The notes below the pieces were generated by a model that did no database searches, was not told where the DNA came from, and worked only from the letters and a program-made list of their open reading frames with translations. From the NCBI GenBank assembly GCA_947462335.1, contig OX381714.1, positions 58,883,800 through 58,947,799 on the forward strand: DNA of 64,000 bases, read 5' to 3'. A program made the translations under genes and the position numbers. Source of the DNA: Harmothoe impar (Eukaryota > Annelida > Polychaeta > Phyllodocida > Polynoidae). Below are positions 5,333 through 47,026 of the stretch, one piece after another (within the stretch, counting starts at the first letter, position 1; each line of letters opens with the position of its first letter).

Positions 5333-6295
5333 TTACAGTCTGAAATCCAACACCTTCTTGCTCCACAACTGTTCCTCCAAAACCAAATTAGATAATGGTC
5401 TATTTAAATAACGCAAAACACACATACTTTTCCAATCGCCTCGCTTAGAAATCTCAGATAAATCCATACCAATCATTGCTAAAGTCGTCGCACCCCCATG
5501 TCTAAAACTGTGGGTGCCAAATTTACCTTTCATACCCAATTTAACACATAATTTTTTCAATTTATCTACAAACCAATCATATTTCGCTGGATGAAACTTC
5601 CCTTTCTTTAACCAACCCAGCAAAGGCTTGCCTTTACCGGTACCACTGTATTCCATAATAAATCTCAAACACTTCATAAAACATAAAGGATGGCCTTTTA
5701 CTTCAGCCACAGGAATGTCCAACACACGTTCCTTATATTGAATAGTCTTAGTTCTCTTTACTTTAAACACGACACCCCAATCATACCAAATCACATCATC
5801 AAAACCAATCACCATCTCCGACAAAAATACATTTGATCCTCTCAACAGGGTTCTGAACATCAATAAACACGCAGTCCAGAAAACCATATCTTCCATCACA
5901 TGTAATTCCAATAAACCTTTAAATCTACACAATTGCTCTGGAAAAATACAAGTTGACGAATCCACAAAAGTACCTTTAAATCTTTTCACCCCTCCAAGTA
6001 CCCACAACAAACCTAGGGTAGTCCTGGATTCATCCTTATGACCCAGCATTCTAGCATGCACTAGTACAGCTGACACATACTGCTGAATAGACAAATAACT
6101 AATTTCAAAACTCAAAAACGCCACATATTTACGCATTACCAACGAATCCAAAGGATAACAATTAAATCCTTTAATCCGACAAAAATTCTCATAACGTCTA
6201 ATCTGCACTGAACGCGTTCTCTTAGTGTTCTCAGAATAATACAAATCCTCCAGTCGTCTAACCTCGAGAAGCAGATCATCACCTTTAAAAAACAA
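5333..6295 (-). CDS. Ngaro-type tyrosine recombinase (integrase)
   Basis: 320-residue protein that would catalyse DNA cleavage and rejoining when the circular cDNA integrates. The tyrosine recombinase signature is visible: an arginine in LLRGSN (about Arg152), the HSFRHGG box (His262, Arg265), a GDW where many relatives have His or Trp (about Trp288), and the nucleophile candidate in RYLN (about Tyr296). The length fits a compact YR domain with an N-terminal core-binding region. It is the last of three same-strand ORFs, 26 bp after the RT-RNase H stop, and is followed at once by B1-A2-B2. No frameshift or lost catalytic residue was found. The first ATG (6295) is used; a nested ATG in another frame at 6321 is a shadow. 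Confidence 0.92.
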   Translation of the reverse strand: MFFKGDDLLLEVRRLEDLYYSENTKRTRSVQIRRYENFCRIKGFNCYPLDSLVMRKYVAFLSFEISYLSIQQYVSAVLVHARMLGHKDESRTTLGLLWVLGGVKRFKGTFVDSSTCIFPEQLCRFKGLLELHVMEDMVFWTACLLMFRTLLRGSNVFLSEMVIGFDDVIWYDWGVVFKVKRTKTIQYKERVLDIPVAEVKGHPLCFMKCLRFIMEYSGTGKGKPLLGWLKKGKFHPAKYDWFVDKLKKLCVKLGMKGKFGTHSFRHGGATTLAMIGMDLSEISKRGDWKSMCVLRYLNRPLSNLVLEEQLWSKKVLDFRL

Positions 6296-6321
6296 AACAA
6301 AAAAAAACTATATAATAACAT

Positions 6322-8418
6322 TCATGAATGTACACATTTAGACTTATTACTCAGACAACAAAAGTCCCGACTTCTTGCATAATCCAAAGCTATGTCTCTA
6401 GCTTTCACACCAATAACCCTCGACAGTGCATCACAAAATACATTTTGCACACTTGAAATTCGATGAGGGAAAATCTCAAAATTATGCACAAAAGAACACC
6501 AAAAAATCTCCCTCAACCATTGCATACACAATCTGTTCCTAGACCTACCAGTTCTCAGCATAATTTCAACCGCCACATTGTCAGTAAATATATGAATAGC
6601 TCTATTCTTCCACAATAAACCCCATCTCACACAGGACATCATTATAGGCCACAATTCACGCTCAGCAGAACAATTCAACAACTGAGAAGGCCCCTTCTCA
6701 AAATGATTCACAAACTCAAATTCATCCACCATTTCATTACTCCAAGTACCGTAAAACCAATCATTATCAAAGCACGCTCCAAATCCCAACATTGAAGCGT
6801 CCGCATAAACGGTATAACAATTCACATATTCTACATTAATTACAGCAGCCCTACCATTAAACATCACAGCAAAACTCTTCCACCAATTCAAATCATCTTT
6901 AAAATTAACATCCAGATTTATGAAATCTCTCTGCCTTTGTACCGTATTAACCAAATTTATCGCCCTTCTAGAAAAGGTACGACCTCCCATGATTACCGTA
7001 CTGCAATGTGATAACACGCCTACTAAACTCTGCAGCTGCTCTTTGGTGCACTTATCTAATAACAGAAACTCCCCTACCAAGTGCTTCAGCTCCACTAATT
7101 TATCATCCGGTAAATACAAACTCAAATTAGTAGAGCATAAATCAATGCCCAAATAACGCACTTTACTTGACGGACTAACAAACTTCTTGTAATTAATATA
7201 GAAGCCAAAACGCCTTAGTAATTCCATTAAAACATAACATGCTTCCCAACATTTCATTTCATCGTCTTCCATAATCAAAAAATCGTCCAAATATCCATAT
7301 ATTCTTACAAAACCTCTTAATCTCATACAGTACACAATAAATTCTGTGAATTGTGTAAAAATAAACGGCGCTGACCTCAAACCAAACGCCAAACTGTTAT
7401 TAACCAAATACTCCACCTTACCATCAATTTCCCAGCGAAAACCTTGCAAGGTGCGCTGTTCTCCACATACAGGAATACTACGATACGCCCCTTTAATATC
7501 TAGTACAGCCATTACGCAATCTTTAGACATATCTTTTGCAATATCCTTAATTGCCACATAACAAAAATCTTCTACTACATCCTCCATATAATTATTAATG
7601 CTAACATTTTTCGGTCTACTAGCATCAGTTATACACCTAATAGAAGTACCATTATCTTTATCCACAGCCCCTAAGGCATGTACACACCGCGGTTTAACGT
7701 TTACAATACTCACAATACCCTCTAACAATTCTTCATGAACAATATCATTCATACATTTAAACGCTTTATCTTTTAGAATAGAATTATAATTCATCATCTC
7801 ATAACTCGTATCAATAGTATAATTTGCTATCTGGCAACCCAACAAGCTACTACGAAATATATACTCAAAATTGCCATCAATACTACCGGTAGACACCACT
7901 TCCATAAACATAGCACAGGGCTTCAACAAAATCCTCGTGCCATTAATATAATGCACACATTCACCATTACACAACTTGAAATCACCCCATTTGTCCACAA
8001 AATCTCTCTTTGATACATCTAGCATTAAGGCTTTTTCATCAATCCAATCCGACACCTTTCCGCCCCGAAGTTCCAATACCGTATCATTCACATCACGACC
8101 ATCTCCAACCTGATCCACCTTGGTTTCTACCTCCCCTAAGGCGACAAACTCACGTTTACATTTTTTACTAATAATGCTATCAATTATCCAAAATTCATCT
8201 CTAGATACATATAATCTAGGCAACAAATAACACATGTATATAGAAACTTGACGAAACATGTCTTGCACAGAATCATACCGAATATTATCCCTCAAACATT
8301 GCATCAATATCAACACACAATCCAACCATACATAAGCATTGATAATCCTCATACACAAATATAAACTATCCAACCACAACACACACACATACATACACAC
8401 ACACATACCATCCCTCAC
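6322..8418 (-). CDS. Ngaro/DIRS-type reverse transcriptase-RNase H
   Basis: 698-residue polyprotein. The RT domain (about 225-425) has motif A VLDIKGAY (Asp307), the FGLRSAP box typical of DIRS-like RTs (about 345-351), and the active-site YLDD at 376-379. The RNase H domain (about 533-668) shows the four acidic positions in YADAS (Asp540), RELW (Glu588), FTDN (Asp613) and FCDALSR (Asp663). The role is copying element RNA into DNA and removing the RNA strand. The first 40 or so residues are Cys/Tyr-rich and overlap a (CA)n-like tract, so the true start may lie further in. It begins 18 bp after the gag-like stop. Confidence 0.93.
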   Translation of the reverse strand: MRDGMCVCMYVCVLWLDSLYLCMRIINAYVWLDCVLILMQCLRDNIRYDSVQDMFRQVSIYMCYLLPRLYVSRDEFWIIDSIISKKCKREFVALGEVETKVDQVGDGRDVNDTVLELRGGKVSDWIDEKALMLDVSKRDFVDKWGDFKLCNGECVHYINGTRILLKPCAMFMEVVSTGSIDGNFEYIFRSSLLGCQIANYTIDTSYEMMNYNSILKDKAFKCMNDIVHEELLEGIVSIVNVKPRCVHALGAVDKDNGTSIRCITDASRPKNVSINNYMEDVVEDFCYVAIKDIAKDMSKDCVMAVLDIKGAYRSIPVCGEQRTLQGFRWEIDGKVEYLVNNSLAFGLRSAPFIFTQFTEFIVYCMRLRGFVRIYGYLDDFLIMEDDEMKCWEACYVLMELLRRFGFYINYKKFVSPSSKVRYLGIDLCSTNLSLYLPDDKLVELKHLVGEFLLLDKCTKEQLQSLVGVLSHCSTVIMGGRTFSRRAINLVNTVQRQRDFINLDVNFKDDLNWWKSFAVMFNGRAAVINVEYVNCYTVYADASMLGFGACFDNDWFYGTWSNEMVDEFEFVNHFEKGPSQLLNCSAERELWPIMMSCVRWGLLWKNRAIHIFTDNVAVEIMLRTGRSRNRLCMQWLREIFWCSFVHNFEIFPHRISSVQNVFCDALSRVIGVKARDIALDYARSRDFCCLSNKSKCVHS

Positions 8419-8436
8419 AGAAGCCAGCTGTACCCC

Positions 8437-9948
8437 CTACCTTGGGATCAGCCCCCCCCTTCCCCTACCCACCCCACACTTCCCTGCCACATGATCCTTG
8501 TCCCCACATTCTGCACACACATGCTTCCTATAACACCGATCACCCCACATACATCTCCCATCATTATGCAGGTAACACGCCTGATGACTTACATCAAAAC
8601 CACGACCCAGAGAGCGACCCCCTCTCCCCCTCCAGGTCCCCCTCCCTCTACCCCTCCCCCCCCCCATCAATGCATCACTCCCCAAATTTTCAAGCACTAC
8701 ATCGGAGCTTCTTTTGCCAAAAGCCACAACACCTTTATTGGCAGCCTTTTCACGTACGACCGCATCATACTGCACTATGCTATCATAATTATATTTCTTC
8801 AGATCCTTCCCTGCCAAAAATCTTAAATGGCCCACATATGGTGCCACTGACTCCCCCTTTTCCAAAAGATTTTCGACATCAAGTAATGAGTAATATAAGG
8901 TCTCTTTATACCCCATTAACTTATTCCTATCCTTTTTTGGCACCAGTTTTTTCAAATCAAAATCACAATCACTACCTGACGAAGATGAACTGTCAGCACT
9001 GCTACCAATCACAGACTTCTTTTTCTTTTTCTTGTTGTGACGAGACTTCTTCGACTTCTCTTTGGCATCTTTCTTTGTCTTAGCCCCCGTCTTGCCCTTC
9101 TTCTTCTTCTTGTGCTTGCTCACCACCTCTTCAACACTACTCGCTTCACTGTCACCACCCAAATTCAGCTCAGAGTCACTGCTGTCGCTATCACTAGACG
9201 TATCCGCAGTACCAGAACCTGCCCCAGCTCCAGCACCTTCGACTTTTTTCTTGGTACCACCAGACTTGTCCTTCTCCTCCTTCTTCCCATCAGCCTCGGC
9301 CTGCTGCCTCGCCAAAACCTCAGCCTGACGATCACGATCCCCTTTCAGGGACTTCCCTATCAGATTCTCACGCTCCTTATCATCACGACCCAACTTGTGA
9401 TAGCACTTATCCACATGCTCATCAAATTTGATTTTTCGGAGTTCCAGTTTGGATGCCTGACGTCTAGCATCCGCCACCTCTGCTCTCAGCCTTGAAATCT
9501 CCTCAGCATTGACATATGCCTGCAGTCTATCCTTCTCATAACTCAACTCATCACGAAGGCTGGCCAACACTGCTTCCTCAGATCCTCTTTCTAAGGCACT
9601 ATCTGGCGAGCCTGAAAGAACGTCCTCTGTTGCTTTTCCAACCAGAATGTCAGTATTGATACTACCTCCTCCTGCACCTGTAGAAGCTCCGGCGACATTG
9701 TCAACTGCATCAGAGGGCGTTTCTCTACCCAGAAGTGACGCACCCTGCCTATCGTTTCCTTTTCGTCTGTCACCACCGAGCATGATATTTGCTCTTGCAT
9801 CTCCACCCTGTCCGGGCGCCGTCTTTCCCCCTGTAGCGTTATCACCGACGTCAATATCTTTCCCATTACATTTCCTACAGATGTCACGGAGTGGGTTTGA
9901 ACGGCCATCGAAGTTTTCTTTACACTCGGTACACTTCTTTGTAGGCAT
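8437..9948 (-). CDS. Gag-like nucleic-acid-binding protein of the Ngaro element
   Basis: 503 residues, first ORF of the element. The N-terminus has two CxxC pairs (Cys6/9 and Cys24/27) that could bind zinc. A charged, probably coiled-coil segment (about 130-225) is followed by a long Ser/Asp- and Lys-rich low-complexity stretch (about 235-320). The C-terminus combines a Gly/Arg-rich segment, a CCCH-type finger (C-x7-C-x5-C-x3-H) and a C-x2-C-x4-H-x4-C zinc knuckle, then a basic GRGRGG tail. Zinc knuckles and basic tails are normal for retroelement Gag proteins that package RNA. I infer the Gag role from position and motifs, since Gag sequences diverge too far for direct recognition. Confidence 0.85.
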   Translation of the reverse strand: MPTKKCTECKENFDGRSNPLRDICRKCNGKDIDVGDNATGGKTAPGQGGDARANIMLGGDRRKGNDRQGASLLGRETPSDAVDNVAGASTGAGGGSINTDILVGKATEDVLSGSPDSALERGSEEAVLASLRDELSYEKDRLQAYVNAEEISRLRAEVADARRQASKLELRKIKFDEHVDKCYHKLGRDDKERENLIGKSLKGDRDRQAEVLARQQAEADGKKEEKDKSGGTKKKVEGAGAGAGSGTADTSSDSDSSDSELNLGGDSEASSVEEVVSKHKKKKKGKTGAKTKKDAKEKSKKSRHNKKKKKKSVIGSSADSSSSSGSDCDFDLKKLVPKKDRNKLMGYKETLYYSLLDVENLLEKGESVAPYVGHLRFLAGKDLKKYNYDSIVQYDAVVREKAANKGVVAFGKRSSDVVLENLGSDALMGGGRGRGRGTWRGRGGRSLGRGFDVSHQACYLHNDGRCMWGDRCYRKHVCAECGDKDHVAGKCGVGRGRGGLIPR

Positions 9949-32835: not shown

Positions 32836-35800
32836 TCAGGCATCGGAGGGCCCTGATTTCTCTTCCTCCTTGCTGCCTTCCTCCTCCTCTGGCGTAGTGG
32901 TGAAAGGGGTGGTATCTCCCGTGGGTTGGGGGAAAATAAGGGCATCAATGTCCACCGCATAGTGCCTGCAACAAACGTTGTGATTATGATATACATAATA
33001 CAACAATAACATGTAATTCTCGTACAGAAATGTACAATTTTAACATAAACGCAACTTCTACAAGTCCGGGGTTTGTGTTGTTAATGTATGAAGTACTAGT
33101 TAAGATATTTAACCATAAACTGTTTTTGCAAATAGCACATGTTAATAACTGAACTGCAGTTCTAAGGAATTTAATACTGACCTCAGTGACTCGGGCAGCC
33201 ACCATGTCGTCGGCATTCCGAAGACTGCCGGCTCCGGGGAGTGTAGCCGGGAAGCCAGGTGCCCGTATCGTGGTGGCGAGTGTGGTGGGGATGGCGACCC
33301 ACTAGAGGAGGAAGGGGACAGCACCAGTCGTCTGTAGCGCACTGGTGGTGGCATTAGCGCCGCATCTTCCTCTGCCTCAGTGTGGCTTTCAGTGACAGTG
33401 TCACTGTCTGACTCACTGCCACTGCCACTTATGATGAGCGTGCTCTCACTGGAGGAGTCCTGGGTGGAGGTGTGCTCTGACACCGCAGTCCAATCAGGAT
33501 CTGATTGGTGTGAGGACGAGTCAACTGAACTGGTGTCAGATCCGGTTGTGGAACCGTAGGGTTCCTCGTCGGACCCGGTGTGGGGGGGGTCTGAAACGTG
33601 AGAAGTACATGATGTCAGAAATTTATGGCAGACAGCGTTTATGTATGGACAGTAGATAAACAAAGCATGTACAACGCTTAAGATAAATCATATATCAACT
33701 ATTAAAAGGATTCAAAGGTCAAGTAACTGCCATTTTGATCACGTCACATGGGTTATTTAAAAGGTGGGTGTATAGATCTATGCAGTACGACCATGACATG
33801 TCATGTACACATGTGCTGTACTCACCTGTAGCGACGGACGTTTTTGCATCCGGCGTGGTGGAGAACGAGTCCGTGTCGGAGTCGGACCCGTAGCAGACCC
33901 GGGTGGAGGTTGGTCCTGCGGTGGCGGTACCCTCGGGTTTCTCGTCGGACCCAGTGTGGGGGGGGTCTGAAACGTGAGAAGTACATGATGTCAGTAATTG
34001 ATGGCAGACAGCTTTTATGTATGGACAGTAGATAAACAAAGCATGTACAACGCTTAAGATAAATCATATATCAACTATTAAAAGGATTCAAAGGTCAAGT
34101 AACTGCCATTTTTATCACGTCACATGGGTTATTTAAAAGGTGGGTGTATAGATCTATGCAGTACGACCATGACATGTCATGTACACATGTGCTGTACTCA
34201 CCTGTAGCGACGGACGTTTTTGCATCCGGCGTGGTGGACAACGAGTCCGTGTCGGAGTCGGACCCGTAGCAGACCCGGGTGGAGGTTGGTCTTGCGGTGG
34301 CGGTACCCTCGGGTTTCTTGTCGGACCCAGTGTGGGGGGGGTCTGAAACGTGAGAAGTACATGATGTCAGTAATTGATGGCAGACAGCGTTTATGTATGG
34401 ACAGTAGATAAACAAAGCATGTACAACGCTTAAGATAAATCATATATCAACTATTAAAGGGGAAGCCTAAGATAGCGTATTTCTATCCACTTTAGAACTA
34501 CCTGATTTAAAGGTCAAGTAACTGCCATTTTGATCACGTCACATGGGTTATTTAAAAGGTGGGTGTATTGATCTATGCAGTACGACCATGACATGTCATG
34601 TACACATGTGCTGTACTCACCTGCAGCGACGGACGTTTTTGCATCCGGCGTGGGGGACAACGATTCCGTGTCGGAGTCGGACCCATAGGAGACCCCGGTG
34701 GAGGTTTGTCCTGCGGTGGCGGGACCCTCAGGTTCTTCGTCTGACCCAGTGTGGGGGGGGTCTGAAACGTGAGAAGTACATGATGTAATTGATGGCGGAC
34801 AGAGTTTATACATGTATTGACAGTAGATAAACAAAGCATGTGCAAGGCTTAAGATAAATCATATATCAAATATTAAAAGGGAAGCCTAAGATAGCGTGAC
34901 ATGTCATGTACACATGTGCTGTACTCACCTGCAGCGACGGACGTTTTTGCATCCGGCGTGGGGGACAAGGAGTCAGTGTCGGACCCATAGGAGACCCCGG
35001 TGGAGGTTTGTCCTGCGGTGGCGGGACCCTCAGGTTTTTCGTCTGACCCAGTGTGGGGGGGGTCTGAAACGTGAGAAGTACATGATGTAATTGATGGCTG
35101 ACAGAGTTTATACATGTATTGGCAGTAGATAAACAAAGCATGTACAAGGCTTAAGATAAATCATATATCAACTATTAAAAGGGAAGCCTAAGATAGCGTG
35201 ACATGTCATGTACACATGTGCTGTACTCACCTGTAGCGACGGTCGTTTTCGCGTCCGGCGTGGGGGACAAGGAGTCAGTGTTGGACCCGTAGCAGACCCG
35301 GGTGGAGGTTGGTCCTGCGGTGGCGGTACCCTCGGGTTCCTCGTCGGACCCAGTGTGGGGGGGGTCTGAAACGTGAGAAGTACATGATGTCAGTAATTGA
35401 TGGCAGACAGAGTTTATGTATTGGCAGTAGATAAACAAAGCATGTACAACGCTTAAGATAAATCATATATCAACTATTAAAAGGGAAGCCTAAGATAGCG
35501 TATTTCTATCCACTTTAGAACTACCTGATTCAAAGGTCAAGTAACTGCCATTTTGATCACGTCACATAGGTTATTTAAAAGGTGGGTGTATAGATCTATG
35601 CAGTACGACCATGACATGCATGTACACATGTGCTGTACTCACCTGTAGCCACGGGCGTTTTCGCGTCCGGCCGAGCGTGTTCCTCTTGCTTGTAGTGGGG
35701 TATGGAGGTCAACGTGGAGGTCGACGTGGAGGTCGACGTGGAGGTCGACGTGGAGGTGGAGGTCGACGTGGTGCTAGAGGGTGAGGTCAAGGTGGAGGTC

Positions 35801-38800
35801 GAGGCGGAGGTAGAAGCGGAGGTCGACACGGAGGTCGACGCGGAGGTTGACGCGGAGGTCGACGCGGAGGTCGACGTGGAGGTCGACGTGGAGGTCGACG
35901 CGGAGGTCGACGTGGAGGTCGACGCGGAGGTCGACGCGGAGGTCGACGTGGAGGTCGACGCGGAGGTCGACGCGGAGGTCGACGCGGAGGTCGACGCGGA
36001 GGTTGAAGTGGAGGTTGAAGTGGAGGTGGAAGTGGAGGTCTTCCCCTTACGGCCCTTACAACTCTTTCCCTTCCCTTTCTCCTCTGTAACAAAATTTGAT
36101 TGAATAACCACACTCTAATTAATGTCTAACAGACACGCTTATAAATTATACAGCCTATAGTTGATCAAGTTCAAGTTTCAAGTTTGTAAATATTTATTCA
36201 GAATGTAGACTATCATATTATACATCACCAATACCTAGGTATCAGCATACATAAACATGAATGAATAATATATATCTATGCATACATCTATGTGCATTTA
36301 AACATATCAATATAGCAGATATTACCCTTGACACGTAATTGTACCATTGTAATTTGTTATTGTCTACCCTGAAAAGGCTGCCGCTGAGAATTTGCTTCTC
36401 GTTTTCGTTGGCCACCTCTAGTTCATATTCATGTAATCCCAGTTGTATATATAAAAAAACAATGTAATTATTCAAATATGCAATTATCACAACATTTCAA
36501 TTAGTAATATATATTATCTCTAAAATTAGCCTTTAGAGTATTATCAACCTCTAATGATAAATATAACAAGTTAGAATAATATTTCAAATACATATTATTC
36601 AATGTATCTTCAGATGTGTATTTATCACAAAATATTTATCACAAAATCTAGAATAATATTTCAAATACATATTATTCACTATACCGGTTGATATGTAATA
36701 TTTCAAATACATATTATTCACTATACCGGTTGATATGTACACTTCTCTTAATGTATAAATTTACTTGATATTTTCACAATTTTAATGATTAGGACATTAT
36801 ACACAAGATTACATAACGTTACACAACTATACACGACATTACAAGGAATAAGGGTAAGGAATTAAGTTTTGTTCAATAGTTTGTGCAACTCCGTTATACA
36901 TATATGAATATAATTGTGTTTCAGTACAAACAGTAATAAAATATGTATGCACCTTACGTTTAATATATGTGATGGTTCCAAAATTAAGTAAGTTATCATA
37001 AGTTTAAAAGCACCATATTGCAATCATTATACTAACATTTCATTCAAAAGAATAACCCTCTAAAAAAAATATTCATGTTAAATGAATATAAAACTATTGT
37101 TTCAATATTTTACACTACTAAAATTTTTTATCATAACTATATCCCAGCCCTTCCCACTTGTATTATAATTTTCTATTCTATTGTCACCTTGGGAATTAAT
37201 CCTTTCAACTCCTTTTTTAAAAGGAATTTAAAGCAATTTCTATCCCTCACATTTCTTTTTCCCGGATCCAAACCATTCCAAAGAGTAGATACAGTGTACT
37301 CCAGACTTCTTTTATATGACTCACAGTGAGGTAGATGATTTTTTAAAAGTATACCATCAGCACTTCTGGTTGAGACAGTGACCTTTTTTATGTATTTCTC
37401 CTTGCACGACCGTTTATGACCCTCTACATAAACATGTGATAATCTTCTATCAGCCAAGTAGTTGACATTAGACTCATAATGGATTAAGTCCGTATGAGTT
37501 CGCATTGGTTTTTTTAGACAAACTTTTAAGACCCTGTTTTGCGACCTTTGCATTTTTGACAATAAAGTACTCCCAGATCTGACATATAAAATATCACCAT
37601 AATCAAAAATAGGCATTATGTAAACCCTGTAAATTTTGAGCAAACTGTTTTTGCTTAAGAATCTTGATATTTTAGTTAGTTGATAAGTTCTATACGCTAC
37701 TGTTTTCATTTGATTTTTCATGAATACTTCATAATTCAGTCGAGGGTCCAAAATTATTCCTAAATATTTATAAGTAAAAACTCTTTTCAGAGCCTCATTT
37801 CCTATGTACAAATTTGCATTTTTGAAACTTTTTTTCCCACCAAAGCCCATAAATTTGGTTTTACTAATGTTAACTGTGAGTTTGTTTTTCTTACACCAGG
37901 ATACAAAATAATCTATACTAGTCTGCATTTTGGCGCAAGCTATTTGCTGGTCCTTATCAGAAACGTATATAACCGTATCATCTGCAAACAGGCTAACAGC
38001 GGCACCAGTTACTGCAATATTTACATCATTAATATAAATTAAAAACAACAACGGGCCCAAGATTGAGCCTTGTGGCACCCCACATGAAATGTTCATCTCT
38101 GCAGAGCACTTGCCATTAATACATGTCTTTTGTTTTCTATCTGATAAATAATCTGTAATCCAAGATAAAAGGTTTCCAGAAATTCCCATATTTTTCATTT
38201 TTTCCAACAAAATCACATGATCCACAGTGTCAAACGCCTTCTTAAGGTCAAAAAAAGTTGCTATGGTGTCAATACCAACATTCTTATTTGATAGAATGTC
38301 ATCAGTAATATTACCAACAGATGTGATGGTCGACATGTTTTTTCTATAGCCATATTGAAATTTTGACAATAAATTGTTATCCTCTAAGAAACCCATCAAA
38401 TTCTTGTGAACGACTTTCTCCAGTATCTTTCCTGGTAGAGCTAGCAGTGATATAGGCCTATAATTTGAAATTTCCCTCCTATCTCCACCCTTATGTATTG
38501 GGATGATGGTTGCACATTTCCAATCCTTTGGAACAAGACCAGTTTTCAGAGAGGAATTAAATAGATGCACAAGCAAACTTTTTGATGATTGGAAAATTAA
38601 TTTTAAAATATTTGAATTTACATTTTTGATTGCAGATGATTTTGAAATGGCTATGTCGTTTATAAAATCAGATATTTCATCCTCATTAGTTATGATTGAT
38701 GTTAGTGATGTTCCCAAGTTTAATTCACCATCATAAGACCAAGGCTCATTAAGGTTTTCGGCCAACTTTTTACCAATATTAGTAAAATATCTGTTTACAT

Positions 38801-41800
38801 AATCTGGCGTATCCTCCTCTGAAACTTCACCACCATCACTATCCACCAAATTTATTGAAACACAATTTGATTTTTTAGATGGGAGTAATTTTGATATCTC
38901 TCTCCAAAATCTATTGGGGTCGTTTTTACACTCCTCAGTTAATTGATTTATAAATTTTTCTCTTGTTGAATGTACATCAACACTAATTAATTTTCTAGCG
39001 TCAGAAGCAGTCTCTCTGTCCACTACATTTTTTGTTTTGTATGATCTTGCCAAAAGCCTATCCTTTTCTGCTATTTGCTCTAAGAGCTGTGGATCCACCC
39101 ATTCCTCTCTGGGCTTTAGTATTGTAAAGTTTTTAAGAGGGCACATGTCATCTAAAATTAATAAAAGTCTGTCAATATAGATTGACCACAGTTCTTGAGG
39201 ATCTTGTATAGAATAGAAATTATCCCAGTCAGACAACAAAACGTCTTCAACCAGTTTTTCACCATTAAAATTCTTCATCGATCTTCCATTAAATTTGGTT
39301 TTTTCCCTAGATTGAATAGATTTATCTATTGTGCCAGCTACAATACAGTGGTCACTAAGATCAAAGGGTATAACCGTGGAAGAGTCCATGTCAAAGTCAT
39401 TGGTAAATATCAGGTCCAAACACAATTCTTTATCTGATATTCTGGTTGGTTCTTTTATCCAGTTCAGGAGCCCATATTGAAGCATCATATTGGTTAATCT
39501 GGAGGTTAACGTCTTTAATTTTGGATCTAGCAAATCTAAATTAAAATCTCCCAATACATATAATCTTTTTCTAGACTTAGCAACCAATTTTTGTAGAATT
39601 GGTTCAATCAACTCAAAAAATCGTTCTGGATTTCCTTGAGGAGGCCTATATACCGTACACACAACACTAGTCTTTCTATTTTCGTCCAATAAAACTAAAC
39701 ATTGGGTTTCCAAATCTTTACAAGATAAGTTAAGAAAATCTAACTCATCATTATTACAATGTAAACTATTATTAACATATGTACAAATTCCTCCTCCAAC
39801 TTTGGGCATTATACTATTAGGTACATCTCTCCATGTTCTGTCAGATCTATACATATGATACCCCCCAATGTTATACATACTCGTAGAATCCATACTAGTT
39901 AACCATGACTCTGATATTGAAAGAAACTTAAAGTTAGTACCGGTAAATCTCAACTTCAATTCATCAATAGTTTTCTTATTTTTAACACTTCTAGCATTCA
40001 GATGCAAATAATGCTCACCCTCCAACTCATTTAACTCTGAAACCGTAGGTTTAAGTTTGTCATCCATTTGATATAAACTGGAGGATATATGATCTACTAC
40101 ACAACCTAGATAACCTAGATTCCCAGACAAATATTCCTAAACACTTAACACATAAATTAAATCTAATACTTAACACTAATGACATCCTAAACCTCGACCT
40201 TTGTCGTTCTAGCATGTATATATTTAGAGATGGATAAGTTACTGTCGACATTTCCCAGCATAATTTCATACAGATTTTATAATAAATAAATTTGGGTTTT
40301 ACTGATATACCATTGTTCATTGACAATATGGCGTATATAACTATATTATATAGTTATACATGCACGTTAGATTATAAATAATAATATTATTGTTTACATA
40401 TTTAATTCATATAATCAATTCTACATTATATTATAAGTGAACAATCCAATTGATAAACTATGATGTTCCAGCTTACTAAAATGGATTTTTCAAGCACATA
40501 CCCATATAAGAATATGTACAAAATGTATTAAACATTTCACAGACATGTGAATTATTCATGTTTTTTCAGACCAAGTTAATAAATCAGATCAAATTGATGT
40601 TGAAGTTAACAAGGAATGTAAAAGTCTAGTTTCAACGTGTTCAAATCAATAATCATGTTGTACAAAGCTGGTCAACGTAGATATATTGAAGTAGTAGGGT
40701 TGCTGTACAGCACTTGTCGATGCCCTGCCTTGGACGCGAACGGTTGTTGACTGCCACGCCCCCTTCTCATCTGCGCCAACCTCTCAGCTTTGACAACGTC
40801 TCAATTGAAGACTCCATGTGTTAGATAGGCCTATGGAACCAATTGTTTTTGTTAACAGTGATACACAACCACACATGTTCCCAGTATTCTATTGGTAACA
40901 ACCTCAGTAGATCAGACCAGTTAAGGGGGATATGTTTAATTTTAATTCCAGAATAGAAAAGTGCCACTGAATTATGATATAAATGGAAATATTTTAGTAG
41001 GAAGATTTTGATGATATAACACTATAATGCAGTGCAACAGTCCATTGATATTAGTTACCTTAGTAGTGTGACTTCATATGGTTGAGCAATTCCAGAGCCC
41101 AATACTTCTGACACTCCAATGTGCCTGACAGGCTATCATTGAGCAGGTTATAGTTAGGGTTGATCCCTGTGTGGACCACTGAGGCCATGTCTGGTGTTGT
41201 CGTTCCGTAATCTAAGTTAAAACCATCTATAAAATCATTTATTACCCACACCACGTTGTTGAGTACTTTTTGGGGTTGCGGGCCACAAAATTGGGAGCAT
41301 GTTTTAAAAACATCAACCCCGGTTACATTTGTTAAATGAATTAAAGTATTGGGATGCCTGTTCCTGAGGTAGCCTACTGATCCCTCAATCAGTTCCATGA
41401 GCTCTTCACACATATCATCTTCTTCCATTGCCATGAAGGTATATCCATTGGTGTCTTGTACTGAATGTATAATATCAAAGATCCCTGCCGATAAATAGTA
41501 AACAGGTAAAGGGTTCTGGTTGATCAAGTCGTCCACCTCTTGACACAGCCTCTCGATACCTGCTCCAGGCCAGCTGTCCACCAGCACTTCGGTGTTCCAA
41601 AAAGAACAATGTTTATGTAGAAAATACTGTAGCGAGCCCTCATGATCCTCTCTCCCATCAGTATATACGTAGATCTGCTTAAGATGCATGGTTTAGGTGT
41701 AATTTAAAACCTTATTTGATGAAATATGTCCTTTTAAAGCAGTCCGCGACTTCTCGACGTAGTTGTAGATTCAAAACACGCGCTGTTTGTATCTAATGAC

Positions 41801-44800
41801 GCTTTGTCATAGTAACCGTATAGCGGCCAATCCTAAGGCACGCTCAGATCACGTGATGTTATGATTACGTCATCAAAGCACACGCTGTCAGAAGACACGC
41901 GGTTTTGTTTACAAACATAGCGCTGTTTTAAATGTCCATACCGATGAATAGAGAACACATTGACCCGCTAAAGCAATCTTAATTTTAGCGAAATGATGAT
42001 GGCTGATCAATATTATACATAAATACATTACTCTAAATCATCCCGGAGAGATTGAAGTATCAATCCCAGTTGATTTTGTCCCGGTAGATTGTTTTTATTA
42101 ATGTATTTTCTTTGAGTAATGACCATACCGCAGCTCCACAGTTTGTCAAATGAGGATGAAATTAGAGATCCCTTGGTTTTTAGAAGATCTTGTTTTAAGC
42201 TTTCATTCTGACTGAACTTTAACTTCTGAGCAAGCTTCATGGCTTTCATTTTTTGGATCTTGTCCCATTTTTGGGATTTCTTTATCAGAGTAGACAGCTC
42301 TCTAATTTCCCCAATGTCCTTTGCCGTACGGATCTCAAATGCTAGTTGATCATCTCCACTAATTGTCGCCTGTTGTGACTTGAAAAAGCATTCTGCACTC
42401 GAATAATCTAGGCCCTCATGCTTCAAGTCACATTGATATTCAGCGGACAAATAGCTGAATGGACCACCAAACATCACTCCTTGATCTGTGTCAATTGTCT
42501 TTATGTCCATCATTCTGAAGCCTTTAGGGAGGTTGTTTACCTCCTGGTATGAGAACCTTTTTCCCTCAAAGATTAACCCATTGCCTGATAACTTCGCCTC
42601 TTTTCCTTTCGATTTACAAAATCCTACTAAGTTCATAAGATTTCTTCTCTCTTCCTGATCCTTAGGTGCAAGGTCATCACAGACTGAGACATATTCCCAC
42701 TTTTGTTTGTTGGCTTTCAAGTTGGAAATATTTGCGTAAATCTGCTGTTTTTGCCTAATGGTGGCAAATCTCACCATTATAGGCCTAGGCCTCTTTTGAT
42801 GTTCCTTCTTTTCGCCCAGCCTATAACAGGCTTCAGTTTCAGCAGATGTGAAGTTTACTTTTAAGTCTCTAAACAAATCATCCAGTTGAACTCTCAAGTT
42901 TAGGTTGTTGCTCTCCTTGATGCCTTCAATTACTATGTTTTTCCTCTTTTCTTTATTTTCCAAGATGTCTACTCTCTCCGCTAAAGAGATTATCCTTCTC
43001 TCTTGGAAATTGCATTTGGCCGTCAGTACCTTGTTACTTTCCTCTAGCTTGAAGTTGGTATCAGACAGTGTTCCAATCTTGCTCGTAAGATCTTGATTCA
43101 GTTCTTCTAGATAACTTTTGATACCATCTCTAGTTATTTGAGAATCTTCTAGATCAGCAAGCTTTTTGAAAATGACCTTTAGAAAATCTCTATCTGAGAT
43201 ATCATCAGCTTCCAGCATCTCCCGAGTTATCTCCCCATTTAAGATATCAGAACTCTCAGTGACAACATTTTCCTCCTTAGAATCAATCAAGTCCCCCTTA
43301 CCTGTCTCCATGTATGCATTATGTAGGACTTGATCTTCTTCATGTAGGCCATGAGCTGCTCCAACGTCATCTCCGCGAGCTGCTCCTTCAGTTGCCCTCG
43401 ATCCGCCATTTTTAAATTTTAACGGCTTTTCGTTGTTACTCTGCGCTCCAGACTTCTTTGGGGTTTTAACCCTGTTAGATCTTCTTGACATTTTAGTAAA
43501 TTATACCAAAATGATCCTTGATTAATTATCTCCAACTTTGTCGCGAACTTTAGTTTGTAGTAGTAAATTAAACCCAAATAATTTACAAAAGTGTAATGTG
43601 CCGACGTGCACCACTTCTACTCTCGCTGACGCTCCATCTCCATCCCAAGCTATATGAAATTAAGTATTGTATGTAATGTTCCCGTTCCTTACTTGTAACA
43701 AGATTTGTACAGTTGTAAGTGATATACACTGCTTCATACATAGTATAATGCTATATAATTGAAAAGGACGCAATCTAGACATGCCAAGAAATTAGAACTT
43801 TGAGTGGGAAATCATGTGTAAAAAAATTCGATAGTGTATAAAATCCCCTCAGGCATATACATGTACATGTGACTCACTTTTCGTAGGGCGATCCTTTTCA
43901 CAGTCTTCCAACAGGGCTGCGCGCTGCTCCACAGTAAATCGCTCTGCATTCTGCACCCGCAGCCTCTCGGCTGCCTCCACATTAGGGATAGGAACTATGG
44001 AGTGGTCCACCGGCTCCACCGGTTCCTCTCCCCGTATGTGGATCCCCCGTTCTAGTTCCCTGACTGGCTGTTGCTCAGGAGTAACCTGCGTTAAATTATA
44101 TAGTACTATAGATATATATATATATAATAAATATATAATGAATTTTGGTGGCTTATTCTGTCATACATCAACTTGAAGACAGGGATAGAAGGCCAAGATA
44201 GTTCAAGCCCGGGAGTTCAAGATAAATGAAAGCTAATCAAGAATATCAAAGATAACCCAACATTGGGATACTCATTAAAGAAAACATGTAGGCCTAGCTT
44301 GGCCGAGGGATGGTACATGTAGGATTGTAGGTGTAATAAATCTATAGATAGGAAACCTGTATGCTTTGTTGTGCTAGGTATTATAAGTGTAACACATAAC
44401 GCAGTTTGCATACAGTTTGTGGTTTTCATTCAACTGTTGTATGCCACGGGAAGCTACATCTTGGCATGTACACTGGTTGAATTGTGCTATGTGGGCACAT
44501 ACAGACCAAGTTAATGAGTAATTCACAAATATAGTCAAACCTCATCGTGAAGATGGGAGGGGGACCTCGTAGGTGCGGCCGGCTTCCTACGCCGCCTCTT
44601 TGCATCAGGCAGGTCCTGCGTGATGTCGGCTTTCTTTGGTTGAGAGGGGCCCAGCTCAATGTCGTCCGGCTCCTCCTCAGCCTCCTCAATGTGCCGCCCC
44701 CGCTTACTCTTGCGAACCTTAGACGCAGCCTCCGCCTCTTGCTCTGTGGAAATATTTGGAATGAACATTGTATGAAAGAAAAAAGAAAAAAGAAAAGCTA

Positions 44801-47026
44801 AAGGATATAGACAAAGGTGCACAAGTTTCAGTCTGTTGACTGGGTTATTTCACAAGTTGACCTTGGGCCGTATTTCACGAGGCCGTAGGCCGAGTGAAAT
44901 GCGGCCCAAGGGTCAACAAGTGAAATAACCCAGTCAATAGACTGAAATGATGGCAGGGGGGAGCCTAAAAGGGCTAAATTGGTTTCTTTCTACGCAGATA
45001 CGGTATTCACATATACCATGACCTGTGACGTAACATGTGATTTGTTCAAAATATTATGGCCATTTAAATGTAAGAATAATATTATTGAAGGAATACTTGG
45101 TAAGAAGTAAAATGCATGTGTAATGTAGACGTACCTTTCTCCTTCATAGTTTTCTTGTACAGGTTATTCCTGTTGCGGAATTCTATGTATTCATCGGTCC
45201 CTTTGTCAGGAGTGCACTTCTGTTTGGTTAGAAATAAAATTTATCTTATAGCTGCGCACTAAATTGTATGTTACTTTATGGCATATAAATTGTATACATG
45301 TATTTCTATAAAAGGGGGGGTAGGAAAAACGAATGTGTAGTGTATTACAAGTATCTAGGGGTGATAAAATAATACCAAAAGTAATATGAGTGTTATATGA
45401 CAGTTATTCCCATCTATGAGAGAGAAGGTACCTAGGGCCTATATACGGAGTAAGCCCTAGTTAGTCATATCACTTTAAGCTGATGTATACATTTTCAAGT
45501 AGAGAAACTGAAACTGGTTTTAAATCAAGATCTGTGGTACAATTTGACAAATATAGTATGGTTTAAATTTACCTTTTGACTCAGTTGGCGCTTGGCCAAG
45601 AACTCCTTACTCTTCTTGTTCTTGGCGTAGTATGTACTGTTCTTCTTTCGGCCGCGAACAGCTTGGTATATGGCCCGGTCAGCCGCATTGAGGGTCTGGC
45701 ACACTTCTTTCACCCCGTATTTGTCACACCAGGCCTCCAACTCGTGGTAGCCTAATACAATTTTATACAAATTCATTTTGTACATGAATGAATACATCAT
45801 ATATATAGACAAATGCCAACGCCCATAGATATACCGTTTCTGTTGTATTTTACGAGTGGGGGCTGGGTATCCCATGAGGCCTCAGCCCCCATGAGTGAAA
45901 TACATCATGAGCGGTATTGATGTAGTTGGCATTTGTTTTAATTTATTTATTTGAAGCCATAAATATTGAAGGGGAAATTTTTCTTTTCTTAGCACGTTGA
46001 ATACGGCCACATTGTATTGAATGGTACCAATGAATACGGTCACTTAGTGCTTTAAGAGGATAGGAGATATTGTATTTCCTACAAATAAAGAGGGGGGTAC
46101 AGTGTGGGGAGCTAACATATCAATTTAAGGATATCAAGGAGGGGTGAATGGGGGGGGGGGGATTTAGACCGACATATAGAGGGGGGGAGGGGGGGGGGGG
46201 AGGACAGACCACCCCCCCTTGTTTTTTAAAATTTAAATCAAGCAGAAATACGTCAGGGATACGCTGTTAGAATATTGTATATAACACATATAGCCGTCTG
46301 TATGTACACAGCACATACAGACCGGGTTAAGGAAAACCAGAGGAGAGCGAAGATGTTATTTAAAGTGTATTCAAACTGGTTGTATCATGTAATAAAGTAT
46401 GTTATGCAGTGTATCAAGGTAAGGGACTACACAATTTCCCATTTTTTCTGTTCTAAAGCAGGAGAAAATGAGAAATAGGGTGGTATTTACATGTCCAAAA
46501 ATTAACCCGGTCTGTATGTGGAACATACAGACCGGCTTATGGTAAACGAAACCTGACAAAACAATAACTGTATTTAACTTGGTATTAAAATGAAATACAG
46601 TATCTAATTGTGTTATACTACGCCAAGGACTAAGTTTGGACAAAAACAGTACTGACTTTTCATAGATAAGCCACTTATTTTACCCGTAGTACACATGTAT
46701 GACATTTCTTAACCCGGTCTGAATTTCGCAAAACATGAGCCGGGATACTACAGCGAGTGGCGAAATTAGTTACATTGTCCACTGCTTACTTGTAATCTGG
46801 ATGATGATATTCCAGTAGAAGTAGTAACATGTGATGTAAAGATACATATCTACTTCCCTTGCATGTTACAAGGTGGTAGCGCTTTGTTTTGTTTAGTATT
46901 ATGAAGAAATTGTACGAGAAATTGTTGTGCACAAACACACCGACTTACCGTGGAAGACACACTGCACAGCTACATAGCAGTTGTTGTCCGTATCCGAGTG
47001 TCGCAGTGTGTGGTACCGGCAGGAAG
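32836..47026 (-). CDS. 13-exon spliced gene of unknown function (5' end not found)
   Basis: Exons on the minus strand: 47026-46949, 45751-45573, 45219-45135, 44743-44541, 44085-43878, 36083-35643, 35365-35231, 35063-34929, 34761-34621, 34342-34202, 33966-33826, 33590-33182 and 32965-32836 (stop TGA at 32838-32836). Each has an AG acceptor and GT donor, and codon phase matches at all twelve junctions, giving about 807 codons. The N-terminal part includes SCRYHTLRHSD...CYVAVQCVFHG and YHELEAWCDKYGVKEVCQTL, then basic and acidic segments and RLRVQNAERFTVEQRAALL. The rest is repetitive, Ser/Thr/Pro- and acid-rich. I do not recognise a family. The first exon is the least certain, and further 5' exons are expected. 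A host gene or a multi-exon transposon gene are both possible. Confidence 0.75.
33182..33590 (-). other. Penultimate exon of the 13-exon gene
   Basis: 409 bp. Starts like the cassette exons (DPPHTGSDEEP), then continues uniquely with Ser/Asp/Glu-rich sequence and a PPVRYRRLVLSPSSSSGSPS patch, ending WWLPESLR. The donor is CTGAG|GTCAGT. It joins in phase to the last exon, which encodes HYAVDIDALIFPQPTG and an acidic end. Confidence 0.75.
33826..35365 (-). repeat. Five tandem cassette exons with their introns
   Basis: Exons at 35365-35231 and 35063-34929 (135 bp each) and 34761-34621, 34342-34202 and 33966-33826 (141 bp each). All start GAC-CCC-CCC-CAC-ACT (DPPHTGSD), end GCAAAAACG...ACAG|GTGAGTAC, and are phase 1-1, so any can be skipped or added without a frame change. 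Introns share long stretches (ACGTGAGAAGTACATGATGT at the acceptor side; TATTTAAAAGGTGGGTGTAT inside several). The array therefore grew by duplication of exon plus intron. Confidence 0.88.
35643..36083 (-). other. Ser/Thr/Ala low-complexity exon
   Basis: 441-bp exon with AG acceptor (GTTACAG|AGGAG) and GTGAGT donor. It is dominated by about 30 copies of a 12-bp word related to GAGGTCGACGCG on the plus strand, encoding runs of TSTS/TSAS on the minus strand. A Lys-rich start (GKGKSCKGRKGK) and a cassette-like 3' end (TPVATG) flank it. Such stretches are usually disordered and may be glycosylated or phosphorylated; that is inference. Confidence 0.8.
36084..37172. other. Intronic AT-rich stretch with short direct repeats
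   Basis: Contains three copies of AATAATATTTCAAATACATA (near 36570, 36652 and 36690), two of them followed by TTATTCACTATACCGGTTGA. A minus-strand frame at about 36420-36320 (VANENEKQILSGSLFRVDNN) has exon-like composition and a weak donor (AGG|GTAATA), but I could not find a good acceptor, so I leave it unassigned. Confidence 0.5.
37173..40130 (-). CDS. LINE ORF2: endonuclease-reverse transcriptase (CR1/L2-like)
   Basis: 985-codon open frame. An APE-type endonuclease (about 40-275) shows LNARSVKNK, SESWLT, YRPPQGNPE, LGDFNLD and DLSDHCIV. The reverse transcriptase (about 480-760) shows NYRPISLL, a DLKKAFDTVDH motif A, GVPQGSILGPLLF, and the active-site FADD at about 715-718, followed by the LINE thumb region (YKYLGI). 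It would nick target DNA and prime reverse transcription there. The layout and motifs fit the Jockey/CR1/L2 group. The listed first codon is not ATG; the first good ATG is near 40063 (MDDKLKP). The frame is fully open, so this copy may be recent. It lies in the large intron of the spliced gene, same strand. Confidence 0.92.
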   Translation of the reverse strand: MSGNLGYLGCVVDHISSSLYQMDDKLKPTVSELNELEGEHYLHLNARSVKNKKTIDELKLRFTGTNFKFLSISESWLTSMDSTSMYNIGGYHMYRSDRTWRDVPNSIMPKVGGGICTYVNNSLHCNNDELDFLNLSCKDLETQCLVLLDENRKTSVVCTVYRPPQGNPERFFELIEPILQKLVAKSRKRLYVLGDFNLDLLDPKLKTLTSRLTNMMLQYGLLNWIKEPTRISDKELCLDLIFTNDFDMDSSTVIPFDLSDHCIVAGTIDKSIQSREKTKFNGRSMKNFNGEKLVEDVLLSDWDNFYSIQDPQELWSIYIDRLLLILDDMCPLKNFTILKPREEWVDPQLLEQIAEKDRLLARSYKTKNVVDRETASDARKLISVDVHSTREKFINQLTEECKNDPNRFWREISKLLPSKKSNCVSINLVDSDGGEVSEEDTPDYVNRYFTNIGKKLAENLNEPWSYDGELNLGTSLTSIITNEDEISDFINDIAISKSSAIKNVNSNILKLIFQSSKSLLVHLFNSSLKTGLVPKDWKCATIIPIHKGGDRREISNYRPISLLALPGKILEKVVHKNLMGFLEDNNLLSKFQYGYRKNMSTITSVGNITDDILSNKNVGIDTIATFFDLKKAFDTVDHVILLEKMKNMGISGNLLSWITDYLSDRKQKTCINGKCSAEMNISCGVPQGSILGPLLFLIYINDVNIAVTGAAVSLFADDTVIYVSDKDQQIACAKMQTSIDYFVSWCKKNKLTVNISKTKFMGFGGKKSFKNANLYIGNEALKRVFTYKYLGIILDPRLNYEVFMKNQMKTVAYRTYQLTKISRFLSKNSLLKIYRVYIMPIFDYGDILYVRSGSTLLSKMQRSQNRVLKVCLKKPMRTHTDLIHYESNVNYLADRRLSHVYVEGHKRSCKEKYIKKVTVSTRSADGILLKNHLPHCESYKRSLEYTVSTLWNGLDPGKRNVRDRNCFKFLLKKELKGLIPKVTIE
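40131..41059. other. AT-rich spacer between LINE ORF2 and the SGNH-like ORF
   Basis: No clear coding sequence. It includes TATATAGTTATA/TATAATATTATA palindromic patches near 40330-40440. If the three minus-strand ORFs belong to one element, this is an unusually long inter-ORF gap. Confidence 0.5.
41060..41689 (-). CDS. SGNH/GDSL-hydrolase-like protein, degenerate active site
   Basis: 209 residues, ATG at 41689. The order of motifs resembles SGNH folds: an N-terminal strand followed by YTDGRED where a catalytic GDS is usual, WPGAGIERL (block with Gly), YYLSAGIFDI in place of the GxND block, and a late VVHTGINPN that could match the DxxH block. The usual catalytic Ser and Asn are not at the expected positions, so activity is doubtful. 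CR1-type LINEs are known to carry an esterase-like domain in ORF1, which could explain its place between ORF1-like and ORF2 frames. Alternatively it is a small host gene in the intron with its own promoter (41827-41873). Confidence 0.55.
   Translation of the reverse strand: MHLKQIYVYTDGREDHEGSLQYFLHKHCSFWNTEVLVDSWPGAGIERLCQEVDDLINQNPLPVYYLSAGIFDIIHSVQDTNGYTFMAMEEDDMCEELMELIEGSVGYLRNRHPNTLIHLTNVTGVDVFKTCSQFCGPQPQKVLNNVVWVINDFIDGFNLDYGTTTPDMASVVHTGINPNYNLLNDSLSGTLECQKYWALELLNHMKSHY
41827..41873 (-). promoter_or_regulatory. Possible promoter elements upstream of the SGNH-like ORF
   Basis: CCAAT (41827-41831), the palindrome ATCACGTGAT (41848-41857, E-box) and ATTACGTCAT (41864-41873, CRE-like) cluster 140-190 bp upstream of the ATG, in a stretch richer in CpG than its surroundings. 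Function is inferred from motif identity only. Confidence 0.4.
42028..43491 (-). CDS. LINE ORF1-like protein with C-terminal NADAR (YbiA-like) domain
   Basis: 487 residues, ATG at 43491. A basic N-terminus and acidic linker are followed by a predicted coiled coil (about 125-182), an RRM-like region (about 183-262, KNIVIEGIKE...RPRPIMVRF) and a basic C-terminal module (about 265-325), the usual parts of LINE ORF1 RNA chaperones. Residues 341-485 add a NADAR domain: YLSAEYQCDLKHEGLDYSSA, the glutamate matching Glu48 of E. coli YbiA (Glu367), a Lys/Trp-Asp segment, LKFSQNESLKQDLLKT, DKLWSCG (Trp452) and GQNQLGLILQSLRDDL. Known NADAR proteins hydrolyse N-glycosidic bonds in riboflavin intermediates or remove ADP-ribose from guanine. 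The His after the Glu is Cys here. Activity is unproven. Confidence 0.85.
   Translation of the reverse strand: MSRRSNRVKTPKKSGAQSNNEKPLKFKNGGSRATEGAARGDDVGAAHGLHEEDQVLHNAYMETGKGDLIDSKEENVVTESSDILNGEITREMLEADDISDRDFLKVIFKKLADLEDSQITRDGIKSYLEELNQDLTSKIGTLSDTNFKLEESNKVLTAKCNFQERRIISLAERVDILENKEKRKNIVIEGIKESNNLNLRVQLDDLFRDLKVNFTSAETEACYRLGEKKEHQKRPRPIMVRFATIRQKQQIYANISNLKANKQKWEYVSVCDDLAPKDQEERRNLMNLVGFCKSKGKEAKLSGNGLIFEGKRFSYQEVNNLPKGFRMMDIKTIDTDQGVMFGGPFSYLSAEYQCDLKHEGLDYSSAECFFKSQQATISGDDQLAFEIRTAKDIGEIRELSTLIKKSQKWDKIQKMKAMKLAQKLKFSQNESLKQDLLKTKGSLISSSFDKLWSCGMVITQRKYINKNNLPGQNQLGLILQSLRDDLE
43492..43877. other. Probable LINE 5' leader and intron sequence
   Basis: Upstream of the ORF1-like ATG. 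CpG-containing sequence around 43540-43640 may be the element's 5' UTR or internal promoter. The intron donor of exon 44085-43878 is GTGAGT at 43877-43872. The element boundary cannot be placed by eye. Confidence 0.4.
44495..44514 (-). repeat. CGGTCTGTATGTGC motif, solo inverted copy
   Basis: GCACATACAGACCAAGTTAA, two changes from the common form. It lies just 3' of the donor of exon 44743-44541. Confidence 0.75.
44826..44947. repeat. 122-bp near-perfect palindrome in an intron
   Basis: Arms of about 53 bp (TTTCAGTCTGTTGACTGGGT... against ...ACCCAGTCAATAGACTGAAA) around a GGCCGTAGGCC centre. Reads like a small foldback element or a cruciform-forming sequence. Confidence 0.9.
45809..45936. 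repeat. 128-bp imperfect inverted repeat
   Basis: Outer arms ACAAATGCCAAC and GTTGGCATTTGT, inner arms GTGGGGGCTG and CAGCCCCCA. It lies just upstream (minus-strand sense) of the acceptor of exon 45751-45573. Confidence 0.75.
46149..46215. repeat. G-tract cluster
   Basis: Runs of 12 or more G, interrupted by single A, followed by a C run (ACCACCCCCC). Expected to form G-quadruplex or hairpin structures and prone to sequencing error. Confidence 0.85.
46294..46330. repeat. Inverted pair of CGGTCTGTATGTGC motifs
   Basis: CCGTCTGTATGTAC faces GCACATACAGACCGGGTTAA across a 3-bp gap. Confidence 0.85.
46502..46539. repeat. Second inverted pair of CGGTCTGTATGTGC motifs
   Basis: TTAACCCGGTCTGTATGTG faces ACATACAGACCGGCTTA across GA, giving a 38-bp palindrome. 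A partial copy (TTAACCCGGTCTGA) follows at 46709. Confidence 0.88.

Follow-up and report, generated by a model that had tools for sequence, protein, structure and literature searches.

A NADAR-fold domain lacking two catalytic residues is fused to the ORF1 RNA chaperone of a LINE in the annelid Harmothoe impar

NADAR enzymes strip the guanine bases of DNA and RNA of ADP-ribose but do not remove it from phosphate ends (PMC11833690, PMC11543638); guanosine ADP-ribosylation on RNA is reversed by them (PMC11833690), and a clam enzyme, CARP-1, ADP-ribosylates guanine (PMC11543638). The NADAR of P. nicotianae binds ADP-ribose through Glu43, Lys50 and Glu125 (PMC11543638), which are chain residues 45, 52 and 127 of structure 8bau and whose numbering is used throughout. 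In the NADAR of E. coli C7 the equivalents of the last two, Lys95 and Asp171, are needed for guanine de-ADP-ribosylation: Ala or Asn in place of the acid, or changes at the lysine, cost activity or rescue. The picture is mixed for the Glu43 equivalent of the same protein, where Gln is inactive and Ala is milder in vitro (PMC11543638). Little is clear about what NADARs do in animals (PMC11125620), an exception being SNA-3, a trans-splicing protein of C. elegans. In its domains 2 and 3 the YbiA-type N-glycosidase residues Glu, Trp and Asp-x-x-Trp matter for function, and its domain 1 is without the conserved NADAR residues (PMC9303266). Among retroelements, NADAR domains have been noted in the ORF1s of Tx1 LINEs of Crassostrea gigas (PMC12477816). 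As for the SGNH fold, ZfL2 encodes an active, phospholipid-binding SGNH ORF1, and Oskar is an SGNH protein without catalysis (PMC3905857). All these statements extend as far as the available portions of the cited texts. The mapping of the SNA-3 and YbiA residues to positions 43, 89, 130 and 133 is our own, made from their order and spacing.

The window analysed here is a stretch of 64,000 nucleotides of the Harmothoe impar genome (contig OX381714.1, positions 58,883,800 to 58,947,799). It holds an apparently intact LINE with three ORFs, whose features are the following:

42028..43491, minus strand: ORF1, 487 aa, an L1-type RNA chaperone with a C-terminal NADAR-fold domain
42946..43131, minus strand: coiled coil, ORF1 residues 121-182 (one long model helix, H121-182; partial alignment with the human L1 ORF1p trimer)
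42517..42945, minus strand: RRM and CTD, ORF1 residues 183-325
42031..42498, minus strand: NADAR-fold domain, ORF1 residues 332-487
42391..42393, minus strand: Glu367, the Glu43 equivalent, kept
42370..42372, minus strand: Gln374 at the Lys50 position, lysine lost
42157..42159, minus strand: Ser445 at the Glu125 position, acid lost
41060..41689, minus strand: middle ORF, 209 aa, an SGNH/GDSL fold without catalytic Ser, Asn and His
37173..40130, minus strand: ORF2, 985 aa, endonuclease and reverse transcriptase (RT), from Pfam and motif strings
36163..36185, minus strand: probable 3' end of the element, an (AAACTTG)-like repeat tail, its boundary drawn by inspection

The initial annotation had read ORF1 as a LINE chaperone made of a coiled coil, an RRM-like and a C-terminal module and fused to a NADAR domain, with Glu367 at the position of the catalytic glutamate, and each of these calls was right. 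The order coiled coil-RRM-CTD is that of type II (L1-like) ORF1 proteins, and structures 2ykq, 2ykp and 2yko match residues 138-333. The C-terminal domain matches the Pfam profile PF08719 at 77.6 bits, against a curated cut-off of 35.1, and structure comparison finds the YbiA fold across the full NADAR domain. Downstream, on the same strand, the 209-aa middle ORF is separated from ORF1 by 338 nt.

In ORF2, Pfam finds RVT_1 (6.5e-38) and, below its cut-off of 27.4 bits, Exo_endo_phos_2 (2.1e-5, 24.8 bits); RNase H is absent from its Pfam matches. Strings that we take to be endonuclease and RT motifs were also found in it. Alignment with human L1 ORF2p (8sxt) yields about 62 bits over residues 380-770 only and leaves the endonuclease uncovered. 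With no full-length alignment to L1 ORF2p, the window's ORF2 is not of L1 type and falls outside the Tx1/L1 group. We tentatively call it CR1/L2-like, by exclusion and on those presumed motifs.

The surroundings of the element were inspected as well. Exon-like coding pieces with splice-like borders, seen by eye, lie just upstream on the same strand (43875-45875, minus strand), and given these pieces the LINE could be lodged within a host gene. Adjoining its 3' end are minisatellite-like arrays (34000-36064) whose repeat units measure about 300 and 12 bases. Elsewhere in the window, a DIRS/Ngaro-like retroelement was recognized by eye (5333-9948, minus strand), with recombinase-like (5333-6295), RT/RNase H-like (6322-8418) and CCHC gag-like (8437-9948) frames.

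A search of the genome with ORF1 gave 3493 candidates, from which 88 matches were scored, the window's own included, at 35-100% identity to the window's ORF1. No internal stop was found in 73 of them (15 contain one), and 83 extend to residue 484 or beyond and so include the end of the NADAR domain. The initial annotation had allowed that the segment might give no NADAR match or be missing from related copies; on the contrary, a large family has the fusion. A chance or single-copy fusion is ruled out by these 88 matches and by the LINE RT found downstream of the NADAR at all 20 non-host loci described below. Nor do unrelated frames appear to have been joined by the assembly: an SGNH match follows ORF1 on the same strand at 86 of the 88 scored places (window included), with a gap of 91-563 nt, mostly about 350, and P0001 and P0008 lie together on what we take, from its equal length, to be one contig of 2415 bp. 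Near-identical copies on different contigs (L113/L114, L115/L116 and L117/L118) suggest recent movement. No relatives of ORF1 were confirmed in viral contigs.

NADAR domains were also searched for across the 1.51-Gb genome (3484 first-look candidates, 150 scored), and all 150 scored places exceed the threshold of the family. Judged by score and open-frame length, four appear to be host genes. These probable host NADARs (L001-L004, L009-L011) are a copy on C19, adjoined by RT fragments, and a cluster of three on C21, and they keep Glu43, Lys50 and Glu125. Genomic context was read at 23 hand-chosen places, three of them host (L009-L011) and 20 others (L012-L028, L109-L111). A same-strand RT frame lies downstream of the NADAR at 20 of these 20 non-host loci, so that much of the NADAR coding capacity of the genome appears to be in LINEs. 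In ten of the 20, an SGNH frame stands between the NADAR ORF1 and the RT; eight of these frames served to build a profile, which the two left out, those of L109 and L111, match at 1.3e-27 and 5.6e-21. Clustering at 60% identity with single linkage gives 38 NADAR clusters, 32 of them, the window's included, being non-host clusters of this genome. Four clades are common to the RT and NADAR trees (16 elements): L012/L013/L015/L017, L016/L019/L020/L028, L018/L021/L025 and L024/L026. This fits co-inheritance of NADAR and RT within clades, as far as such trees can tell; the window joins L024/L026 in the RT tree (0.89) and not in the NADAR tree, and deep nodes are weak. The ORF2 of L022, which is 61% identical to L110, aligns with human L1 ORF2p (8uw3) at 343.8 bits over residues 6-1170. 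Because the ORF2s of L022 and L110 are of L1 type and that of the window is only weakly like L1 ORF2p, at least two kinds of LINE in this genome have a NADAR ORF1, an L1 group and a CR1/L2-like group. LINEs with a NADAR form a large radiation here, to which the window's LINE contributes one lineage.

To compare the active-site positions we used 99 NADARs outside the window's family, namely 97 of the 146 listed non-host places plus P0002 and P0003; context had been read for 20 of the 97. All 99 have Glu43 and Trp89, 98 have Lys or Arg at position 50 and 97 have Glu125, an upper estimate of the intact share since the 97 are the best-scoring places and the window, at 77.6 bits, ranks below that list. 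Asp occupies position 130 in 60 of the 99. In two of these other NADARs, L092 and L106/L111, Glu125 is replaced by Leu, likely a second loss of the catalytic acid to judge from the residues.

Within the window's family, 28 of the other 87 matches were read (8 whole ORF1s and 20 NADAR pieces, hand-chosen over the identity range from stop-free rows). In 23 of the 28 the residues are altered, and with the window and P0001 these make a group of 25. No member has an acid at position 125 (Ser445 in the window), 24 have Gln at 50 (L131 has Lys) and Glu43 is kept in 20, with Thr or Ala in the other five; Trp89 and an Asp or Glu at 130 are present in all 25, and Trp133 in 22. Of the residues that mark a NADAR hydrolase of guanine-ADP-ribose (Glu43, Lys or Arg50, and Glu, Asp or His125), the window therefore has the first and lacks the other two. 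An alignment artefact at the altered positions is rejected, as the spacing from Glu43 to 50 and from 125 to Trp133 is free of gaps against other LINE NADARs; 8bau has one extra residue between position 125 and Trp133. The remaining five pieces, L135-L139, keep Glu43, Lys50 and Glu125. In a tree from which the near-duplicates L114, L116 and L118 were dropped, the 22 altered sequences form one clade (support 0.994) inside a clade that includes L135-L139 (support 0.996), and because of this nesting the loss of Lys50 and Glu125 most likely happened once, as reconstructed from these sequences. New residues have appeared in the 22: Gln replaces Lys50 in 21, Lys replaces Arg93 in 22, and Cys replaces Ala126 in 21, the window having Ser.

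Selection on the frame was assessed in nine whole ORF1s of the altered clade, which give 3 near-identical pairs and 33 diverged ones. For the latter, the NADAR has a pS of 0.73-0.93, near saturation, and a dN of 0.108-0.292; only in window-L117 does this dN exceed the value for the remainder of ORF1, and in the other 32 it is equal or lower. With dS saturated dN/dS can only be bounded, yet it is far below 1, and the purifying selection across copies that the initial annotation had made a point to check is borne out to that extent. Against L112, a 73% relative, the window's NADAR has a dN of 0.108, and its SGNH frame compared with that of the L112 element has a pN of 0.12 and a pS of 0.82, with 167 of 209 residues identical. 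Because synonymous change is saturated and amino-acid change limited in diverged pairs, both frames are, on this comparison, evidently maintained in the window lineage. In a family with intact residues (L012, L013 and L015, L014 being left out), dN/dS is 0.100, 0.095 and 0.087 for the NADAR, and 0.113, 0.096 and 0.085, much alike, for ORF2. L012 against L014 shows no synonymous change in the NADAR and a value of 0.763 in the rest of ORF1; between L025 and L027, dN/dS is 0.349 in the NADAR against 0.235 in the rest of ORF1, from very few changes. The low dN/dS of the intact family and the limited dN of the altered clade together argue that the NADAR domain is maintained with or without its catalytic residues.

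The partner frame carries a comparable change. The model of the window's middle ORF (pTM 0.77, mean pLDDT 75.9) gives 61 PDB matches by Foldseek at E<=1e-3, with SGNH hydrolases at the top (best match E 2.8e-6, prob 1.00), and the 50 listed are mostly SGNH/GDSL; Pfam finds no SGNH family in 11 middle ORFs, the window's included. In the alignment, the window has Gly, Phe and Ser in the columns of the nucleophile Ser, the oxyanion Asn and the catalytic His. Of 11 members, only L025/L027 retain the nucleophile and 9 have lost it; in the window lineage its column holds Gly, Ala or Asp in 8 of 8 elements (six short pairs besides the window and the L112 element), and in P0008 it is Gly by eye. The sister lineage keeps the Ser in four of five (L135-L138), the frame of L139 being misaligned; L135, L137 and L138 show the His, which is unreadable in L136. 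Two variant arrangements were seen in other elements. Between ORF1 and ORF2, L016 (4042-5606) and L020 (4200-5583) have two tandem SGNH-fold frames. L023 (1901-3562), a LINE of another kind, has NADAR followed by SGNH-like sequence in one frame, the SGNH-like part being confirmed neither by the SGNH profile at E<=1e-3 nor by Pfam.

How these losses may have come about can be proposed as follows. As its structure suggests, ORF1p would use the L1-type coiled coil, RRM and CTD to coat the RNA of the element. To judge from the conserved residues and the biochemistry of other NADARs, the NADAR ancestral to those of the LINEs was most likely a working hydrolase, which would have freed guanines in the RNA or cDNA of the element from ADP-ribose or cleaved a related N-glycosidic linkage; NADARs with the full residue set may still protect element nucleic acid in this way. 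A single ancestral change in the window lineage would have substituted both the Lys50 that binds phosphate and the acid at 125; the SGNH partner would have lost its nucleophile, and the element still has both folds. The NADAR, its old catalysis gone, would now serve the RNP as a module that binds nucleic acid, nucleotide or protein, and the SGNH frame would be a binding scaffold like the non-catalytic SGNH domain of Oskar. That the two domains are retained for binding without their old catalysis is the reading we favour, and we hold it with equal measures of belief and doubt. It is supported by domain 1 of SNA-3, in the available text a NADAR without the conserved residues (PMC9303266), and weakened by the retention of the Glu43, Trp89, Asp130 and Trp133 equivalents, by the fixation of Gln50, Lys93 and Cys126, and by the fact that the clade-wide loss is a single event.

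We put forward tentatively a second reading, possible but short of favoured, in which NADAR and SGNH are a linked LINE module for handling ADP-ribose-type marks, both sites having changed together and the NADAR pocket having been rebuilt as a reader or a re-aimed enzyme. The two would have been inherited as one unit, and the pocket may have been rebuilt through Gln50 and Cys or Ser126. A second lineage, L106/L111, also seems to have changed both: by eye, L111 has lost both sites (Glu125 to Leu, SGNH Ser to Arg) and L109 keeps both. However, the losses are not strictly coupled, because three families (L016/L020, L019/L028 and L024/L026) keep the NADAR triad and lack the SGNH Ser, and the association rests on few lineages; among the lineages read, small in number, none has kept the SGNH Ser where the NADAR is altered. 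If true, this reading would be a retrotransposon case of a repurposed enzyme.

Less likely than the favoured reading, though a close rival to it, is a switch of the NADAR pocket to another substrate or chemistry, as an N-glycosidase or a reader of a nucleotide without the ADP-ribose pyrophosphate. The near-uniform replacements at 50, 93 and 126 would fit such a switch, as would position 130, Asp or Glu throughout the altered group and Asp in 60 of the 99 NADARs outside the family, the maintenance of the domain in diverged pairs, and the importance of the homologous residues in SNA-3 and YbiA in the portion of that source at hand (PMC9303266). On the other hand, position 125 varies between Ser, Tyr, Asn and Gln and Glu43 is lost in five of 25, which looks like relaxed constraint on the pocket.

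The initial annotation had proposed an ADP-ribose N-glycosidase that counters a defence acting on the element's nucleic acid. This remains plausible for NADARs that keep Glu43, Lys50 and Glu125, and the triad mostly kept in the 99 other NADARs fits such a role in sister families. For the window itself, an active de-ADP-ribosylase shielding element RNA or cDNA from ADP-ribosylation is improbable: the equivalents of Glu43, Trp89, Asp130 and Trp133 are present and a clam has the guanine-modifying enzyme CARP-1 (PMC11543638), but the window and its clade have other residues in place of Lys50 and Glu125, and equivalent changes in the C7 enzyme are costly in what is available of the same source. As for decaying baggage without function, the loss of two catalytic residues, the lower conservation of the NADAR than of RRM-CTD between the window and P0001 (68% versus 83%) and the internal stops in 15 of 88 matches speak for it, but the small amount of amino-acid change in 33 pairs whose synonymous divergence is saturated, the 73 stop-free matches and the 83 that reach at least residue 484 make it very improbable.

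A testable question is raised by these elements, namely whether retroelements meet and reverse ADP-ribosylation of their own RNA or cDNA, and catalytic roles are set apart from others by comparing a lineage in which the residues are kept with a sister that lacks them and is maintained all the same. The open-licence literature yielded no report of a NADAR in LINEs with a non-L1 ORF2, of its pairing with SGNH, or of these residue losses, and NADAR is unmentioned in the available text of a survey of ORF1s (PMC4120745) and of one of bivalve LINEs (PMC10294476). The fusion had been thought undescribed; this stands for LINEs with a non-L1 ORF2, as far as we found, and fails for LINEs at large, the NADARs of Crassostrea gigas Tx1 ORF1s being in print (PMC12477816, available in part).

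With those oyster elements, as described in the accessible text (PMC12477816), the window's LINE shares a NADAR in ORF1. L022 and L110 of this genome have the L1-type ORF2 expected of Tx1, whereas the window has a non-L1-type ORF2, a separate SGNH frame and two lost catalytic residues, features whose state in the oyster lies outside that text. A brown-alga LTR retrotransposon has likewise captured a NADAR, by the partial account available, but is an LTR element and carries it at another position. The YbiA-type hydrolases (E. coli YbiA, 2b3w; P. nicotianae, 8bau) are alike in whole-domain fold and in the Glu43, Trp89, Asp130 and Trp133 equivalents, and differ in that the window has Lys50 and Glu125 replaced and is fused to an RNA chaperone. 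Nematode SNA-3, with three NADAR domains, is likewise a protein of RNA metabolism in which one domain of three is without the conserved residues, but it is a host protein and no LINE, and the likeness drawn here is one of description (PMC9303266). The esterase ORF1 of CR1/L2 elements such as ZfL2 similarly places an SGNH fold upstream of EN-RT in a LINE (PMC3905857, PMC4120745, each in part). Here, however, SGNH is a separate frame between the NADAR ORF1 and ORF2, and the window is without the Ser and His of a triad that is intact in ZfL2 according to the available text. Finally, human L1 ORF1p (2ykq/2yko) has the same coiled coil-RRM-CTD order and fold, to which the window's protein adds a C-terminal NADAR.
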